Part shown: one piece after another, positions 6,356-12,411 of the stretch
Layout: every line of letters starts with the position of its first letter
Position numbering within the stretch: position 1 is the stretch's first letter
Virus record (IMG/VR): IMGVR_UViG_3300030109_000596
Span: 1 to 29,480 of that record
Length of the DNA stretch: 29,480 nucleotides
DNA from: a virus
Strand: one strand, 5' to 3'
Notes under the pieces: model-generated
What the model saw: only the letters and a program-made list of their open reading frames with translations
The model's database searches: none
Told to the model about the DNA's origin: nothing
Position numbers and translations under genes: made by a program

Positions 6356-6715
6356 ATGCACAAACCAATATATTCAAATCAAGAGCATAAAGCTATTCTT
6401 GAATTATATATAAATATGTGTAAAGAATTTGCTAAAGATGTAAGTAGTAGGTCAAGATACAATGCATATCTTGATGTTTTGGATACAATCATAGAATATC
6501 ATAATAACTATGGGAAAGGTATGAGAGAAAACGGAAATTTTTATGATTGGATTATGATTATCCCTACAAATGTAGCAGTAGCAACAAATGGATTTTTTGC
6601 AGGATTGGAAACAAAAAGAAATGCGGCTACAATTAGAAGTTATAAGGTAATACTTGAACAACTTTTATATGACTCAGTAGATAAAATAGACAAGATAGAA
6701 CCTACGAATGACTGA
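6356..6715 (+). CDS. Hypothetical protein, 119 aa
   Basis: A 119-residue protein with a helical first half (EHKAILELYINMCKEF, then RYNAYLDVLDTIIEYH) and a middle stretch IMIIPTNVAVATNGFFAG that is moderately hydrophobic but probably buried, not membrane. No family is recognised. It starts 22 bases after the NinG-like gene and overlaps the sigma factor by eight bases, so it is probably co-expressed with it. Confidence 0.55.
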   Translation: MHKPIYSNQEHKAILELYINMCKEFAKDVSSRSRYNAYLDVLDTIIEYHNNYGKGMRENGNFYDWIMIIPTNVAVATNGFFAGLETKRNAATIRSYKVILEQLLYDSVDKIDKIEPTND

Positions 6716-7280
6716 TATTTATATTGAAATATCTCAATTAACAGATGCATTTAAAAGAGTAGCATATCGTAATACTAAAGATAAAGATAAAGTTAATGAA
6801 GCGGTACAAGAACTAATGTTATATTTTCTTAGTATGAATCCAAATACTTTGAGGGCTATTTGGGAAAAGGATGGAAGAACTGGTATTATTAAATATGGAA
6901 CAGTTGCTTTGAATAGAGCTTTAACAAGCAAAAGGTCAAATTTTTATTATAAATATGAAAAATATTACACACATATTGTCAATATTAATTATACTAATAA
7001 TAGTTCTGTCATTCAACTTGATTATGATTGCGATAGTAAGTATTATAAAACTTTATCAAATATTCCTGAACAAAAAGAAGAATATCAATGGGAGAAATTA
7101 GAACAAATAGATAAAGAATTAGACAAATTATATTGGTATGATAAAAAATTATTTGAATTATATTATTATGAATCTAATACATTAGATAGTTTAGCAACAA
7201 AAACTAAAATAAGTAGAAATAGCTTATTTACCACAATAGATAAAGTAAGGGAAATCTTGAAAAAAGAATTAAATGAGTAA
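6708..7280 (+). CDS. Phage RNA polymerase sigma factor (sigma-70-like)
   Basis: The 190-residue protein has the layout of a small sigma factor. An N-terminal region with VQELMLYFLSMNP could be region 2, and a C-terminal region has LEQIDKELDKLYWYDKKLFE, then YYYESNTLDSLATKTKIS and NSLFTTIDKVREILKK, a clear sigma region 4 type helix-turn-helix. It would direct host RNA polymerase to phage promoters, most likely late ones. An AT-rich motif with a TCTATA core occurs before several structural genes and is a candidate target. It overlaps its neighbours by eight bases on each side. Confidence 0.7.
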   Translation: MTDIYIEISQLTDAFKRVAYRNTKDKDKVNEAVQELMLYFLSMNPNTLRAIWEKDGRTGIIKYGTVALNRALTSKRSNFYYKYEKYYTHIVNINYTNNSSVIQLDYDCDSKYYKTLSNIPEQKEEYQWEKLEQIDKELDKLYWYDKKLFELYYYESNTLDSLATKTKISRNSLFTTIDKVREILKKELNE

Positions 7281-7677
7281 GTGGTTTGCAACATCTGAAG
7301 TATATAAAGAGAGAATGTCTATTTGTAGGGATTGTGTTTATTATTTTAAGTTAACAGGGAATTGTAAAGTATGTGGATGTTTTATGAAAGTAAAATCAAG
7401 GATAGGGTCAATGTCTTGCCCTAAAGGTAAATGGGATAAAAGTCATGACAGGATAAATACTCCTAATGAATTACCCCAAGAAATTATAGATGAAATTATT
7501 AATCTTTATCCTGATATTAAAGGACGTAGAGCAAAAGATTACGAAACTAAATTTAAAATGATAGACTTATACAATACAATTCATAGAACACGTCACAATA
7601 AAGGGACAAGTTGTAAGCCTTGTTTGTCAGAAATTTTCAATTCAATAAATAAATTATATAATAAATACAAAAAATGA
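7273..7677 (+). CDS. Zinc-ribbon-like Cys-rich protein, 134 aa
   Basis: Residues about 13-52 contain seven Cys: MSICRDCVYYFKLTGNCKVC, then GCFMK and SMSCPKGKW. This spacing suggests one or two bound zinc ions. The remainder has a helical middle (ELPQEIIDEIINLYPDI) and a late CKPC pair. Such short zinc proteins are common in flavobacterial phages near a sigma factor, with no known role. DNA or RNA polymerase binding is a plausible guess. It overlaps the sigma gene by eight bases and the next by four. Confidence 0.6.
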   Translation: MSKWFATSEVYKERMSICRDCVYYFKLTGNCKVCGCFMKVKSRIGSMSCPKGKWDKSHDRINTPNELPQEIIDEIINLYPDIKGRRAKDYETKFKMIDLYNTIHRTRHNKGTSCKPCLSEIFNSINKLYNKYKK

Positions 7678-7880
7678 GCTACTTAACACATTTAAAAAGA
7701 ACAAATATGCACCACTCAGAAAGGTGGATAGTAAAATATGATGATAAAGGATTAGTAAGGGAAGTCAAATTGGTTTATAACCCTGAAGAATATAGAAAAG
7801 GTAAAAGGTCAAGAACATTAAATACACAAAACGGTTTAATAAAAATATTAGAAAATGACAAAGAAAAAAGAAATTCCTGA
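7674..7880 (+). CDS. Hypothetical basic protein, 68 aa
   Basis: A 68-residue basic protein with an aromatic beta-rich core (RWIVKYDDKGLVREVKLVY) and a Lys/Arg-rich end (GKRSRTLNTQ). No family is recognised. It is coupled by four bases to the zinc-ribbon gene and overlaps the DUF3310 gene by 26 bases. Charge suggests nucleic acid contact, which is inference. Confidence 0.5.
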   Translation: MSYLTHLKRTNMHHSERWIVKYDDKGLVREVKLVYNPEEYRKGKRSRTLNTQNGLIKILENDKEKRNS

Positions 7881-8079
7881 ATATTATAAAGGCAAGAATG
7901 GGTATATGGCTAAAGATGTTGTAGCTAATTTTGACTTAACTTATAATGTAGGTACAGCAGTTACTTATTTATTAAGAAGTAAAAACAAACATGATGATGG
8001 GGGGATTGAAGATATAAGGAAAGCAATACATCATCTACATTTTGAATTAGATAAATTATATCAAGATGACACTATATAA
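7855..8079 (+). CDS. DUF3310 family protein, 74 aa
   Basis: The 74-residue protein follows the DUF3310 pattern: PEYYKGKNGYMAKDVVANFDLT, then YNVGTAVTYLLRSKNKHD and a final EDIRKAIHHLHFELDKL helix. The family includes T7 gp1.7, described as a nucleotide kinase that alters sensitivity to dideoxythymidine, and S. aureus SaV1-type proteins. A role in nucleotide metabolism during phage DNA synthesis is therefore possible. It overlaps genes on both sides. Confidence 0.75.
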   Translation: MTKKKEIPEYYKGKNGYMAKDVVANFDLTYNVGTAVTYLLRSKNKHDDGGIEDIRKAIHHLHFELDKLYQDDTI

Positions 8080-8320
8080 ATGTGAATGTGGTAAAAGTAA
8101 AGAAATAGGGAAGTCTACTATTGCATTAAGGGATGGTAAGTGGAGAACTATCCAAGCTATATGTGATTGTGGTAAATGGATGGATAGTGAACCTGAAGAA
8201 GGAATACCTAATCTAAAAAGGACTGAAGAATCACTAAGCAAAAAGAAAAGACACGATAAACTATGGGATGGGGCAAAAGAAAAATTATGTGGAGAAAGAG
8301 GAATTAATGAATCATTTTAA
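8066..8320 (+). CDS. Zinc-ribbon-like protein, 84 aa
   Basis: An 84-residue protein with CECGKSKEIGKS near the start and CDCGKW after about 25 residues, four Cys in two C-C pairs typical of a zinc ribbon. The C-terminal half is charged and Lys-rich (SLSKKKRHDKLWDG). Family not named. It overlaps the DUF3310 gene by 14 bases. It may be a nucleic acid-binding accessory. Confidence 0.6.
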   Translation: MTLYKCECGKSKEIGKSTIALRDGKWRTIQAICDCGKWMDSEPEEGIPNLKRTEESLSKKKRHDKLWDGAKEKLCGERGINESF

Positions 8321-8321
8321 A

Positions 8322-8519
8322 ATGAAGAAAAAAAGGTCAAGTACATATTTAAAAAGTCAAAGAAATAAAGCAGTAAAATATTATTTCATAAATCCTGATA
8401 CTACATTAAAATGTTTAGCAGAAAAATTTAGAGTTAATCAAGATAAGTTAAGCAAAGACATAAGTCAAAAATTAGAACAAAGATTCAAAAACAGTATCTC
8501 TCAAAAATATAAAAAATGA
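8322..8519 (+). CDS. Small helix-turn-helix protein, 65 aa
   Basis: The 65-residue protein has a basic start (MKKKRSSTYLKSQRNKAVKY) and then TLKCLAEKFRVNQDKLSKDI, a likely helix-turn-helix in which the second helix would contact DNA. In-frame starts also exist at 8268 and 8307, but they lie inside the previous gene. ATG 8322 sits one base after its stop and gives a compact domain. It precedes the ParB-like gene with a four-base overlap and could be a transcriptional regulator. Confidence 0.55.
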   Translation: MKKKRSSTYLKSQRNKAVKYYFINPDTTLKCLAEKFRVNQDKLSKDISQKLEQRFKNSISQKYKK

Positions 8520-9112
8520 AAAAACAAATAAAAATTTATAAAATAAAGGGGAATCCAAAAAACCCTAGAATAATTAAGGATAATAAATTTAGAAAACTTG
8601 TAAAAAGTATAAAAGAATTTCCTGAAATGTTAGAAAAAAGACCAATTATAGTTGATGAAAACATGATGGTTCTTGGTGGCAACATGAGGTTAAAGGCAAG
8701 TAAAGAAGCTGGGTTAAAAGAAGTTTGGATAGATATTGCTGAAGGATGGACACAAGAACAAAAAGATGAATTTATAGTAAAAGATAATGTTAACTTTGGT
8801 GATTGGGAGTGGGATGTGTTAGCTAATGATTGGGATAGTGTACAACTTACTGAATGGGGTTTAGATGTTTGGCAGAATTTAGATGATAATGTAAATAAAG
8901 TAAATGATATAAATGGAGAATGGGTGGGAATGCCTGAATTTGAAGCAGTAGATAGTCCGTATAAAATCACTATAAGTTTTGAAAATAAAGAAGATAGGGA
9001 ATTATTTGATAAGCAATTTAAAATAAAAATATCATCAAAAGGAGATAGGACTTGGTCTACTTGGTTCCCGTATAAAGAAAAACAAGATATAAAATCATTA
9101 AAATATGAATAA
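8516..9112 (+). CDS. ParB/Srx-type domain protein
   Basis: The 198-residue protein starts with the ParB N-terminal-like fold: NPKNPR at 13-18, FPEMLEKRPIIVDE, GGNMRLKA at 54-61, then WTQEQKDEFIVKDNVNFGDW. This version usually occurs in phages next to or fused with DNA methyltransferases, with the GGN-R motif binding a nucleotide. Here no methyltransferase follows; residues 125-198 form a separate small domain ending in STWFPYKEK. The gene overlaps the glycosyltransferase by eight bases, so it is probably part of a DNA-modification or packaging step. Chromosome partition is unlikely because there is no ParA. Confidence 0.75.
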   Translation: MKKQIKIYKIKGNPKNPRIIKDNKFRKLVKSIKEFPEMLEKRPIIVDENMMVLGGNMRLKASKEAGLKEVWIDIAEGWTQEQKDEFIVKDNVNFGDWEWDVLANDWDSVQLTEWGLDVWQNLDDNVNKVNDINGEWVGMPEFEAVDSPYKITISFENKEDRELFDKQFKIKISSKGDRTWSTWFPYKEKQDIKSLKYE

Positions 9113-9977
9113 GTACCCTATTTATATACCATCAAAAGGAAGAGCAGATGTTTGTTATACAGCACAATGCTTTTTAAAAGATAAAGTAAATTTTAAAATT
9201 GTAGTTGAGCCTGCACAATTAGATGAATATAAAAAACATTATAATGAAAACTTAATTTTAGTATTGCCTGAAAATGGATTAAGATTGTTGGGTTCAAGAT
9301 TATGGATAAGAGAACACTCTAAAAAAAACGGCTTTGATAGACATTGGCAATTTGATGATAATATTAAAGTATTTAGAAGATTACATAAAGGGAAAAGAAT
9401 AAGATGTAATGCAAATATAGCTATTAAAGTAGTAGAGGATTTTACTGACAGGTATGAAAACATAGGACTGTCAGGATTTAATTATACTTTTTTTGCAGTA
9501 AATGAAAAAAAAACACCTTTTACTTTAAATTGTCACGTTTATTCAGCATCATTAATAAACAACACAATTCCTTATAAGTGGCGTTTATATTATAATGATG
9601 ATACTGATTTATGCTTGCAGATTTTAACAAGTAAAGAAAAATTATGTACAGTTTTATTTCACGCTTTTTTAGTAGACAAAATGGCTACAATGGTAGTTAA
9701 AGGAGGTAATACAGAGGATTTATATAAAAAAGATGGCAGATTAATAATGGCAAGAGCATTAGAAGAAGTATGGCCTGAATTGGTAAAAACGAAATGGAGA
9801 TTTGGAAGGCCCCAGCATGTAGTTAAAAATTCGTGGAAAGATTTTAAGAACCCCTTAATAAGAAGAACCGATATTGATTGGGATGAAATAGAACATAGAA
9901 AATATGATATTAAATTAAAACAAGTAAAAGAAATAAAAAGTAAAAATTTAAAAGAATTTTATAAAAAAAATAAATGA
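9105..9977 (+). CDS. Probable TAGT-family DNA base glycosyltransferase (GT-A fold)
   Basis: A 290-residue protein. IYIPSKGRAD near residues 6-15 is the nucleotide-sugar-binding start of GT-A enzymes; FDDN at 83-86 is the likely metal-binding DxD equivalent; LSGFNYTFF, YNDDTDLCLQ (163-172) and GGNT (200-203) follow, then RFGRPQH (232-238). This order agrees with the TET/JBP-associated glycosyltransferases (TAGT) described in phages, which are thought to add sugars to oxidised bases. An NDP-sugar epimerase directly follows (four-base overlap) and could supply the donor. No TET dioxygenase or base hydroxymethylase is encoded, so the acceptor is unclear. A virion-protein glycosyltransferase is the alternative. 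Confidence 0.68.
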   Translation: MNKYPIYIPSKGRADVCYTAQCFLKDKVNFKIVVEPAQLDEYKKHYNENLILVLPENGLRLLGSRLWIREHSKKNGFDRHWQFDDNIKVFRRLHKGKRIRCNANIAIKVVEDFTDRYENIGLSGFNYTFFAVNEKKTPFTLNCHVYSASLINNTIPYKWRLYYNDDTDLCLQILTSKEKLCTVLFHAFLVDKMATMVVKGGNTEDLYKKDGRLIMARALEEVWPELVKTKWRFGRPQHVVKNSWKDFKNPLIRRTDIDWDEIEHRKYDIKLKQVKEIKSKNLKEFYKKNK

Positions 9978-10882
9978 AAAAGATATTAGTAACAGGAGGG
10001 GCAGGATTTATAGGAACAAATTTAATAGAAGAATTGCTTACTAAATATAAGAAAGAACAAATCACAGTATTAGACAATCATTTTACAAGTAGTAATAAAA
10101 ATCATATAGAAGGTATAAAATATATCTATGGAAACACTTGGGATATTGATGAGATATTTAGACCTATTGGAAAATTTAAAACTAAATTTGATATTGTTTT
10201 CCATTTTGGAGAATTTTCAAGAATAGTTAGGTCGTTTGAAGATATTGAATATGTAATAGATACTAATTTAACGGGAACAGCTAAAGTTTTGCAAATGTGT
10301 AGTAAATGGAATGCTAAATTTATATATTCAGCTTCAAGTTCTAAATTTGGAAACGAAGGGAAAGATGAAAATTTAAGTCCTTATGCTTGGTGCAAAGCTA
10401 AAATGGTTGAGTTAATAAAAAATTTCAATAAATGGTATGATTTACAATATGAAATATGTTATTTTTTTAATGTGTATGGGGAAAATCAAATTGTAGAAGG
10501 AAATTATAAAGCAGTAATAGCAATATTTGAAGAACAATATAATAGTGAAAAGCCTATGACAATAGTAAATCCAGGAACACAAACAAGACATTTTACATAT
10601 GTAAAAGATATTGTAAAAGGAGTTATCAAAACAATAGATATTAATATGAATCACGAATGGTTCTTCCAAAATGAAAAAGAATATAGTATTTTAGAGGTAG
10701 CTAAATTATTTCATCAACAAGACAATTACTATAATCAAGAAATAGTTATTATACCATCCCGAAAAGGGGAAAGGTTTAATTCAATGATAATAAATAATGA
10801 CACAAGAAAAATATTAAATTGGAAACCTGAATATGAATTACATCAATGGATAAATAAAGTAAGAATTAATGGAACAAAATAG
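9974..10882 (+). CDS. NAD-dependent nucleotide-sugar epimerase/dehydratase (extended SDR)
   Basis: A 302-residue protein with the extended short-chain dehydrogenase layout. TGGAGFIG at 7-14 binds NAD, SASSSKFG (119-126) supplies the active-site Ser, and YAWCK at 137-141 is the catalytic YxxxK. YFFNVYGENQ and TRHFTYVKDIV match the sugar-binding half of UDP-glucose 4-epimerase and related enzymes. It probably converts one NDP-sugar to another in the cytoplasm. Its four-base overlap with the glycosyltransferase suggests that the product is that enzyme's donor. Which sugar is made cannot be read here. Its stop overlaps the terminase small subunit. Confidence 0.87.
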   Translation: MKKILVTGGAGFIGTNLIEELLTKYKKEQITVLDNHFTSSNKNHIEGIKYIYGNTWDIDEIFRPIGKFKTKFDIVFHFGEFSRIVRSFEDIEYVIDTNLTGTAKVLQMCSKWNAKFIYSASSSKFGNEGKDENLSPYAWCKAKMVELIKNFNKWYDLQYEICYFFNVYGENQIVEGNYKAVIAIFEEQYNSEKPMTIVNPGTQTRHFTYVKDIVKGVIKTIDINMNHEWFFQNEKEYSILEVAKLFHQQDNYYNQEIVIIPSRKGERFNSMIINNDTRKILNWKPEYELHQWINKVRINGTK

Positions 10883-11222
10883 AACACAAATAGCAAAAAA
10901 AAGAATGTTAGAAGCACTAGAGAAAAGTCTAGGAGTTGTAACAACAGCATTGAAGTCAACAGAATTATCAAGAACAAATTATTATAAGTGGCTAAAAGAG
11001 GATGAAGAATTTGCAGTTAAAGTTCAAGAAATAGAAAACATATCAAAAGACTTTGTAAAGTCAAAGTATTATGAATGTGTAAAAGATAAAGTACCATCAG
11101 TAGTGATACATGCTGCAAAAACAAAATTAGGATGGAACGAAACTAATAACATAGATATAACGTCAGGCAACAAACCAATTAATATGCCTGTAATAAAATT
11201 TGTAGAAACTGATACTGAATAA
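10869..11222 (+). CDS. terS: Terminase small subunit (HTH type)
   Basis: A 117-residue protein with a helix-turn-helix start, KKRMLEALEKSLGVVTTALK followed by STELSRTNYYKWLKEDEEF, typical of small terminases that recognise the packaging site. Then comes an oligomerisation helix and the conserved-looking PSVVIHAAKTKLGWNETNNI. Position directly before the large subunit supports the call. It overlaps the epimerase by 14 bases and the proposed start of the large subunit by eight. Confidence 0.85.
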   Translation: MEQNRTQIAKKRMLEALEKSLGVVTTALKSTELSRTNYYKWLKEDEEFAVKVQEIENISKDFVKSKYYECVKDKVPSVVIHAAKTKLGWNETNNIDITSGNKPINMPVIKFVETDTE

Positions 11223-12411
11223 AAAATATAACGCTTTATTTAATTCCGATGCTAGATACTTTATAATTACAGGGGGGAGAGGTTCTGGTAAGTCTTTTGC
11301 TGTTACGGTATTTCTAACTTTACTCACAATGACTCAAGGCATTAGAATTCTTTTTACAAGATTCACAATGGTGTCTGCTCACTTATCTATTATTCCAGAA
11401 TTTTTAGAAAAAATAACATTATTAGGATTTGAAGATATTTTTAATATTAATAAAGCAGAAGTGTTAAATATGAGTAATCAATCCGACATATTATTTAGAG
11501 GAATAAAAACATCATCAGGTAACCAAACAGCAAGACTAAAATCTTTACAAGGGATAAGTTGTTGGGTATTAGATGAAGCAGAAGAACTTATTGACGAGGA
11601 TATATTTGATACTATTGATTTAAGTATAAGGGAGAAAGGAGTACAAAATAGAGTGATTTTAATTTTGAATCCTACAACTAAAGAGCATTGGATATATAAT
11701 AGATTCTTTCAAGACAAAGGAATAGAAGATGGATTTAATGGCGTTAAAGACAATATATGTTATATCCATAGTAACTATTTAGATAATAAAGATAATCTCT
11801 CTAAGAGCTTCCTAGAGCGTATAGAAGGGTTAAAGCATACTAATTTTAAAAAGTACCAACATAAAATACTTGGAGGATGGTTAGATAAAGCAGAAGGAGT
11901 TGTGTTTGAAAATTGGAGTTTTGGAGAATTTAATCCTAATGATTTACAAACATCTTGTGGAATGGACTTTGGTTTTAGTATAGACCCTGATAGTCTTGTT
12001 GAAGTAGCTATTGATAAAAAACACAAAAGAATATATGTCAAAGAACATATTTATCAAAATGGTTTAAAATCACACGAATTAGCAAAAATAGTTTTAGATA
12101 AGGTAGATGATAAGTTAATAATAGCAGATAGTGCAGAACCAAGACTGATAGAAGATTTAAGACATTTAGGAGTTAATATAAAACCTGTAAAAAAAGGAAC
12201 GATTGAAAGTGGGATAACAAGGATGCAAGATTATGAATTAATAGTAACACCTGAATCAACAAACATAGCTAAGGAATTAAACAATTATGTCTATGCAGAC
12301 AAAGGTTCAAAATTATATGTAGATAATTACAATCATTCAATTGATGCTATCCGTTATAATTGCATATACCATTTAGATAATCCTAATGCAGGAAAGTATT
12401 TTGTACAGTAA
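11215..12411 (+). CDS. terL: Terminase large subunit, proposed non-ATG (CTG) start
   Basis: Read from CTG 11215 the protein has 398 residues. Walker A is GGRGSGKS at 20-27 and Walker B is VLDEAEE at about 118-124. The nuclease part has acidic residues in GMDFGF (D251), IADSAEP (D305) and NHSIDAIRY (D377), as in Terminase_3-type subunits. The first ATG in frame (11329) would remove Walker A, so translation must begin upstream. The frame is open back to a TAG at 11203-11205, and that stretch holds no ATG, GTG or TTG. CTG 11215, CTG 11209 or ATA 11212 are the only near-cognate starts. The protein cuts and pumps phage DNA into the prohead. Confidence 0.88.
   Translation: MNKKYNALFNSDARYFIITGGRGSGKSFAVTVFLTLLTMTQGIRILFTRFTMVSAHLSIIPEFLEKITLLGFEDIFNINKAEVLNMSNQSDILFRGIKTSSGNQTARLKSLQGISCWVLDEAEELIDEDIFDTIDLSIREKGVQNRVILILNPTTKEHWIYNRFFQDKGIEDGFNGVKDNICYIHSNYLDNKDNLSKSFLERIEGLKHTNFKKYQHKILGGWLDKAEGVVFENWSFGEFNPNDLQTSCGMDFGFSIDPDSLVEVAIDKKHKRIYVKEHIYQNGLKSHELAKIVLDKVDDKLIIADSAEPRLIEDLRHLGVNIKPVKKGTIESGITRMQDYELIVTPESTNIAKELNNYVYADKGSKLYVDNYNHSIDAIRYNCIYHLDNPNAGKYFVQ

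Follow-up and report, generated by a model that had tools for sequence, protein, structure and literature searches.

The stretch of DNA analyzed here (the window) is the IMG/VR virus record IMGVR_UViG_3300030109_000596, a linear contig of 29,480 bases whose completeness is uncertain, so that absences reported below hold for the record and not surely for the phage. Three open reading frames (ORFs), all on the plus strand, encode proteins of 198, 290 and 302 residues (8516-9112, 9105-9977 and 9974-10882, respectively) and overlap one another by 8 bases and 4 bases. A sequence-only reading of this DNA had described three chained genes directly before terminase, and this is what lies there: the terminase genes are called at 10869 and 11329, the first of them (10869-11222) overlapping the third ORF by 14 bases. 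The system in question is a glycosyltransferase of the TAGT family together with a small domain that we call WGMP, a name coined in this analysis, which in the window forms the end of the ParB-like protein encoded just upstream. The features are:

8516..9112, plus strand: ParB-like N-terminal module and C-terminal WGMP domain, 198 residues (PHROG 620, 3.5e-19; PHROG 498, 4.8e-22; Pfam ParB_N, 8.4e-5, below cut-off)
8912..9109, plus strand: WGMP domain, W-x-G-M-P-x-F followed by a W-[YF]-P block (model A6, E = 9.7e-23 in the window record)
9105..9977, plus strand: TAGT-family glycosyltransferase, Pfam domain at 9114-9707 (PF20691, 5.8e-40; PHROG 842, 2.4e-33; isoelectric point, pI, 9.55)
9974..10882, plus strand: extended short-chain dehydrogenase/reductase (SDR) acting on a nucleotide sugar, as epimerase, dehydratase or decarboxylase (PF01370, 1.9e-38; GGAGFIG and YxxxK motifs)
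10869..11222, plus strand: small terminase subunit, TerS (PHROG 4044, 4.8e-5)
11329..12411, plus strand: large terminase subunit, TerL (PF04466, 9e-27)

As for the glycosyltransferase, a profile search strengthens the family assignment that had been made from motifs. The protein matches the TAGT hidden Markov model (HMM) of Pfam at 137.9 bits against a cut-off of 27.5 (E = 5.8e-40), and its PSKGR, FDDN, YNDDTDL and GGNT motifs are present at residues 9, 83, 163 and 200. Among PDB sequences, it has no credible match (best E 0.12). The structure that we modeled is that of a relative, a natural WGMP-TAGT fusion (L118 in our numbering of loci), the window protein being one row of the alignment and not the model itself. 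AlphaFold2 predicts this fusion with a local confidence score (pLDDT) of 92 and a predicted template modeling score (pTM) of 0.88, with blocks of 78-97 over WGMP; when WGMP is modeled alone, from an alignment that differs from that of the fusion, the scores are 79 and 0.49. The fusion model suggests that WGMP packs on TAGT. It adopts a GT-A fold, since the 50 structural matches listed, with Z-scores of 12.4-14.4, are nearly all GT-A enzymes by title. The weak WGMP-alone model retrieves two Foldseek matches, both with E values of at least 8, and is uninformative on the fold of this domain.

The protein upstream of TAGT is composed of two parts. Its first ~125 residues account for the ParB matches, which are clear for PHROG 620 and sub-threshold in Pfam (23 bits against a ParB_N cut-off of 26.3), while its last ~65 residues form a separate domain, WGMP, which reads EWVGMPEFE...TWSTWFPYK. 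The label "ParB-like" given to this gene from the sequence is thus sound for the N-terminal module, the one found in phage DNA methylases (PHROG 620 and PHROG 498), but it overlooked the domain at the C-terminus, with which TAGT is constantly paired. None of Pfam, NCBIfam and PHROGs has a model dedicated to WGMP. A PHROG 940 ParB match reaches ~30 residues into it, the standalone copies of L016, L017 and L020 have no PHROG match, and the two standalone copies tried have no NCBIfam match and none over the Pfam cut-off. From 43 long WGMP proteins, picked solely by the position of WGMP in the frame and by E value, 38 were scanned along with that of the window. All 39 match both PHROG 620 (ParB) and PHROG 498 (DNA methyltransferase, in its ParB part), and 28 match Pfam ParB_N at 0.01. 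The long N-terminal part in L195 has no PHROG match, so ParB is not universal among such parts.

That WGMP belongs with TAGT is evidenced by their linkage. In related loci found by a TAGT search of viral contigs (n = 30), WGMP stands alone beside TAGT or is fused to its start. Viral contigs were also scanned at the DNA level for sequences encoding W-x-G-M-P-[DE]-F. This returned at least 118 loci, at least 102 of them with a WGMP HMM match, and all counts from the scan are lower bounds. Among the matches listed, TAGT is present in the locus piece for 101 of 102 WGMP loci; for the last, L058 (G012), which is the sole WGMP-only locus and has a piece of just 2.6 kb, it is found in the whole record. 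In all loci with both, each counted WGMP lies within 1.5 kb of a same-strand TAGT or is fused to it. Fifteen of the loci listed, with neither WGMP nor TAGT, were taken as chance matches, and in L073 TAGT is accompanied by no more than the beginning of a WGMP, which lies in the TAGT frame. Since the scan motif was derived from TAGT neighbors, the reverse search (TAGT in bacterial genomes) was also made: WGMP is present in 53 of 58 bacterial TAGT loci (52 by HMM, plus a divergent copy in L215 read by eye), and of the five without it, four start right at the edge of a contig, while L222 includes no more than the C-terminal half of a TAGT. The module is also seen in a prophage region of Chryseobacterium daeguense (L183). 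When distinct TAGTs are counted (n = 91), 85 of the 90 besides that of the window have WGMP in their locus piece, all on the same strand; those counted without it are L002, L023 and L026, where the piece starts at or near TAGT, L034 and L073. Finally, a search of 50,697 named phage records yields 24 that match the TAGT of the window (E 1e-5) and 20 that match the WGMP consensus (E 0.01), all within those 24, the other four being two Kuja records (the one tested has WGMP by HMM) and two records of Nonlabens phage P12024L (the one tested has TET and no WGMP). Plasmid records gave no match. We conclude that the WGMP-TAGT module is real and widespread, and that WGMP is, on these sequence counts, the constant partner of TAGT as far as sampled.

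Four arrangements of WGMP are seen. It can be a protein by itself, it can close a ParB-like protein, it can be fused to TAGT, and in L057 and L172 ParB, WGMP and TAGT are all joined in a triple fusion. Among 132 WGMP hits, 59 are well inside a longer protein, 59 are short or alone and 14 are fused to TAGT. A third candidate triple fusion, L096, was rejected: nothing in it matches ParB, and what it carries in addition is a degenerate second WGMP. Extra degenerate copies are seen in or beside WGMP-TAGT proteins in this locus (6558-8114) and in L038 (8885-9019).

We placed 118 TAGTs on a quick maximum-likelihood tree with SH-aLRT support and without bootstrap, on which T6 sits on a very long branch. 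One group of 103 rows includes the window (SH-aLRT 95). The fused form requires 11 gains or losses on this tree, at least five of them forced by starred branches. The second TAGTs of two-TAGT loci fall outside the window group in, e.g., L012, L015, L017, L024 and L103, and inside it in L036, L205 and L093. Several TAGT matches can also crowd together, four in L093 (6144-9291) and two within one protein in L012 (2924-4657), and loci with several TAGTs hint at stepwise sugar chains. A DDN motif is found in 100 of 101 first-copy TAGTs, while all five TET-linked TAGTs and T6 have DDD. DDN as a mark of WGMP-linked copies alone was rejected, because second-type TAGTs are mixed and six of eight also have DDN.

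These data bear on whether the window holds part of a classic TET-TAGT-methylase system with its TET gene outside the contig, which a linear and possibly incomplete record would permit. TET-linked TAGTs form a group of their own on the quick tree, outside that of the window, and they differ by the DDD motif. Moreover, WGMP is present in 0 of 22 loci retrieved from the TET side (19 by a TET query and three by the P12024L TAGT, L238 and L241 being one contig), and TET/JBP is present in 0 of 31 WGMP records, P12024L, which has no WGMP, being the sole positive among the 32 whole records searched. We consider this explanation extremely unlikely. P12024L, a small flavobacterial phage, does resemble the window in having a TAGT in a compact cassette; it differs in its Tet_JBP dioxygenase (E = 2.8e-29), of a kind not found in the window record, in its annotated methyltransferase gene and in its lack of WGMP, and the two TAGTs are 28% identical.

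The sequence-only reading had also claimed that no base hydroxylase is encoded, which holds for the record and is a trait that the window shares with most WGMP records searched. Pfam scans of 28 of the 47 window ORFs gave no match to a hydroxylase, a DNA methyltransferase or a thymidylate synthase (TS). For the remaining 19, nearly all of which lie in the structural region, coverage comes from searches of the whole record with PF12851, PF00303, PF13640 and PF00145, none of which gave a match. Across WGMP records, the TS family (PF00303; T6 control positive) is found in 5 of 31, all of at least 107 kb, and is absent from 26; with four Aeromonas records added, the count is 9 of 35. The 2-oxoglutarate (2OG) oxygenase family PF13640 occurs in 2 of 35, both from IMG/VR. 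The C5 methylase family PF00145 occurs in 3 of 32 records, a weak test because P12024L is negative as well. The T4-type alpha-glucosyltransferase (alpha-GT, PF11440) is found in 0 of 35 WGMP records and only in T6 among 37 records, a search confined to alpha-GT. As for host genomes carrying the module, TET is present in 0 of 13, although the same model detects it in P12024L. Most records are contigs of uncertain completeness, which weakens single absences more than the overall pattern, and hydroxylases of families outside those searched are possible.

Could TAGT instead act second, as in T6, extending a sugar or another modification already placed on DNA by an unrecognised enzyme or by the host? 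The T6 enzyme adds a second glucose (PMC13216743, PMC13390438; papers are cited by PMC number), and the nine large named WGMP phages tested have TS-family genes. PHROGs could not separate TS from hydroxymethylase, so we inspected the N/D position by eye, for nine copies in all. At this position, Asn marks a thymidylate synthase and Asp a hydroxymethylase. T6 gp42 has Asp; Asn is found in six copies (henriette, Kuja, the first PTm1 copy, 65, phiAS5 and avDM6); the POP12 copy is cut before the position; and the second copy of Tenacibaculum phage PTm1 (L227, 75-749), in which the motif is missing, appears by eye to have Asp and to be hydroxymethylase-like. The Aeh1 and avDM12 copies are outside these nine. 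Outside this position, the copies of Kuja, 65 and avDM6 look atypical, so that hydroxymethyl-dUMP is possible there. The TS-family genes, the second PTm1 copy and the 2OG oxygenase in two IMG/VR records argue for a second step. On the other side, TET, the TS family and PF13640 are all missing from 24 of 31 WGMP records; the cultured Vibrio phages 1.124.O and 1.076.O (48 kb), which carry WGMP-TAGT, likewise match none of the three. Furthermore, in the two-TAGT loci L012, L015, L017, L024 and L103, one copy lies inside the WGMP clade and one outside it on the quick tree, and the WGMP type therefore looks like the first step. On balance, action as a second step is improbable, though it deserves to be kept in view.

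The module can also be compared with characterized pathways. The T6 beta-glucosyl-hydroxymethylcytosine (HMC)-alpha-glucosyltransferase shares PF20691 with the window as a remote match (4.8e-11), but it adjoins a gp42-type hydroxymethylase in a genome with alpha-GT, has no WGMP and carries DDD instead of DDN. The TS-family dCMP hydroxymethylase (PF00303) of T-even HMC glucosylation is not found in the window record. The RB69-type arabinosyl-hydroxycytosine pathway likewise combines sugar-nucleotide genes with one or two transferases, yet it requires a TS-family 5-hydroxy-dCMP synthase (PMC13390438), and none is present in the window record. RefSeq names the WGMP-TAGT genes of L036, L037, L039, L161 and L162 beta-glucosyl-HMC-alpha-glucosyltransferase; this is doubtful, since these genomes have no alpha-GT and TS-family copies read mostly as the Asn type. 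Aeromonas phages Aeh1 and 65 have a TAGT fused to WGMP and no alpha-GT. Unlike the window, they are much larger, have a TS-family gene and a fused WGMP, and have no ParB or SDR annotated adjacent; TET is absent from the phage 65 record, the one of the two that was searched. An Aeh1 glucosyltransferase is listed, after Iyer 2013, as presumably modifying DNA at an unknown base (PMC8056088), and its identity with the Aeh1 TAGT gene is not provable from the ORF name.

The third gene encodes an extended SDR acting on a nucleotide sugar. Its best PDB match is the UDP-glucose 4-epimerase 4zrm (1.1e-20), and no NCBIfam model is over cut-off among the matches listed. "Epimerase" is hence a class name and not a proven activity: the earlier description as a full SDR epimerase stands for the extended SDR and its nucleotide-sugar substrate, with epimerase as one of its candidate activities. 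Among blast clusters within 4 kb of the 91 distinct TAGTs, the SDR cluster is present in 14 loci, the window included, and TAGT plus epimerase was accordingly rejected as the core pair. Other clusters are a SAM methyltransferase (6/91), a nucleotidyltransferase (4/91) and a UDP-glucose-dehydrogenase-like protein (3/91). The window SDR shares 53-54% identity with the SDRs that follow TAGT in L142 (53%) and L094. The order ParB-WGMP, TAGT, SDR, TerS, TerL is found again in L142, whereas L119 has the upstream gene clusters of the window yet no SDR. Given these varied sugar genes, and L142 with SDR but L119 without, the sugar seems to vary between loci and the SDR to be an optional accessory. Genes between WGMP and TAGT add to this variety: a sulfotransferase (L123, 2155-2778; L056, 1203-1904), which hints at a sulfated sugar; a DXD glycosyltransferase (L008, L051); an FkbM methyltransferase (L009); and, downstream of ParB-WGMP, a radical SAM protein (L007, 628-1590; L014, 9004-9993; L104, 665-1705), for which an acceptor- or sugar-modifying step is possible.

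Sugar clusters of jumbo phages have been interpreted as modifying cell-surface glycans (PMC7824862), which for this module would mean O-antigen conversion or receptor masking. We regard this as very unlikely here. In the neighborhoods viewed, no flippase or GtrA-type gene was noticed, although no search was aimed at them, and WGMP is joined to ParB. The hydropathy of the window TAGT is borderline (best 19-residue mean 1.67, inside the GT core) and was not used.

With regard to the terminase genes, the Walker A motif of TerL (GGRGSGKS) lies in frame upstream of the called ATG, in window 11191-11329 (translation from 11191). No ATG, GTG or TTG start is listed in this stretch, and the gene may have an unusual start codon.

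As to the acceptor, several features are in favor of DNA. The ParB module shared by all 39 long WGMP proteins scanned is that of DNA methylases, and in L003 TAGT has a ParB::N6/N4-methylase next to it. Within 4 kb of TAGT, 25 of 91 loci have a TerL cluster, and seven have a second TerL cluster. The gene of Vibrio phage 1.124.O, gene 57, belongs to a replication operon, in which a DNA adenine methylase is one gene away and a dUTPase is nearby. First-copy TAGTs are basic, with a median pI of 9.3 (n = 101) compared to 6.96 for their neighbors, and a paired charge excess over neighbors of 3.73 per 100 residues (n = 87, p = 5e-13).

A number of observations weigh against a DNA acceptor. The absences of TET/JBP, TS-family and alpha-GT genes from most or all WGMP records, and of TET from host genomes, leave no hydroxyl source visible. 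The case for DNA is indirect, built from sequence as fusions, position and charge. Basic charge is compatible with any polyanion; the only TAGT known to act on DNA, that of T6, lacks a basic charge (pI 7.25); and the ParB-WGMP protein of the window is acidic (pI 5.37). Whole-record searches with Pfam ParB_N at E 0.001 find only 6 of 35 WGMP records, many of which carry a solo or fused WGMP, so that the ParB assignment draws on PHROGs and on the 28 of 39 Pfam matches at 0.01. In any event, ParB-like domains can be nucleases or NTPases (PMC5512222). As for the structural model, the GT-A fold is clear, and its neighbors are mixed, including many polypeptide and polysaccharide transferases; the fold does not point to DNA and leaves DNA versus protein undecided. 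Human GREB1 also has a TAGT-type domain. It is reported to glycosylate a protein, by O-GlcNAcylation of a receptor (PMC10908778).

TAGT-WGMP might instead glycosylate a virion or host protein in the manner of GREB1 in animals, with ParB-WGMP as scaffold or substrate. In favor of this, besides GREB1 itself, the closest GT-A folds include ppGalNAc-transferases and a collagen galactosyltransferase, and the module often adjoins packaging genes. A protein acceptor is less easily reconciled with the fusion and linkage to a ParB module of DNA methyltransferases, with the replication-operon position in 1.124.O or with a basic enzyme, and we rate it as unlikely, on a par with second-step action on DNA. 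The explanation that we favor, with a probability of about 0.58, is that a WGMP-TAGT module tethered by ParB places a sugar onto phage DNA without the known hydroxylases, the SDR tailoring the donor. When first-step and second-step action are taken together, DNA is a likely acceptor.

How such a module would operate can be outlined as follows. Its core would be a two-part enzyme, TAGT plus WGMP, with WGMP carried here by the ParB-like protein and elsewhere free or fused to TAGT. The ParB-like domain would bind and scan phage DNA, as is thought for phage DNA methyltransferases. WGMP, whose coupling to TAGT is shown by linkage and fusions and supported by the structural model, would dock on TAGT and shape or present the acceptor site, and the GT-A enzyme would then transfer the sugar moiety of a nucleotide sugar onto a base in DNA, the SDR having turned a host nucleotide sugar into the preferred donor. 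Judging from their genes, certain relatives appear capable of attaching a second sugar, a sulfate or a methyl group. Since no known hydroxylating step was found, either an unrecognised enzyme of the phage or the host would prepare the base that serves as acceptor, or a base would be attacked directly. A specific version of the latter is that WGMP opens or presents the base, TAGT puts the sugar directly on a canonical nucleobase, e.g., on an exocyclic amine, and ParB moves the enzyme along the genome before packaging. We view it as speculative and somewhat less probable still than the protein acceptor. If true, direct base glycosylation would add a third way of making glycosylated DNA to the two that start from hydroxymethylation or hydroxylation of the nucleotide and from oxidation by TET.

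Solitary TAGTs are already in print. TAGTs are described in T6-like phages (PMC13390438), the T2/T6 enzyme extends glucose and that of T6 acts on DNA, and in a 2026 study 288 of 753 phage genomes have a TAGT but neither alpha-GT nor beta-GT, these TAGTs being called potential novel transferases (PMC13216743). A ParB-methylase with nicking activity is on record (PMC5512222), and phage DLP3 has a ParB near terminase and a glycosyltransferase, but of the RfaB type (PMC7326821). No mention of a WGMP partner domain was found in the literature searched, including PMC13390438, PMC13216743, PMC5512222, PMC10908778, PMC7824862, PMC8056088, PMC2988022 and PMC7326821, a search in which a nameless domain cannot be sought by name and whose scope did not extend to Iyer 2013. 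As far as the literature was searched, the new elements are WGMP as a partner, the fusions that it forms and the census of hydroxylases. As far as sampled, these findings equip solitary TAGTs with a constant partner as well as with a domain architecture and a genomic signature; the acceptor-making enzymes that were searched for are absent from most records examined. The question of what solitary TAGTs modify becomes testable in cultured, small phages, and the answer may be a new way for viruses to disguise their genomes.

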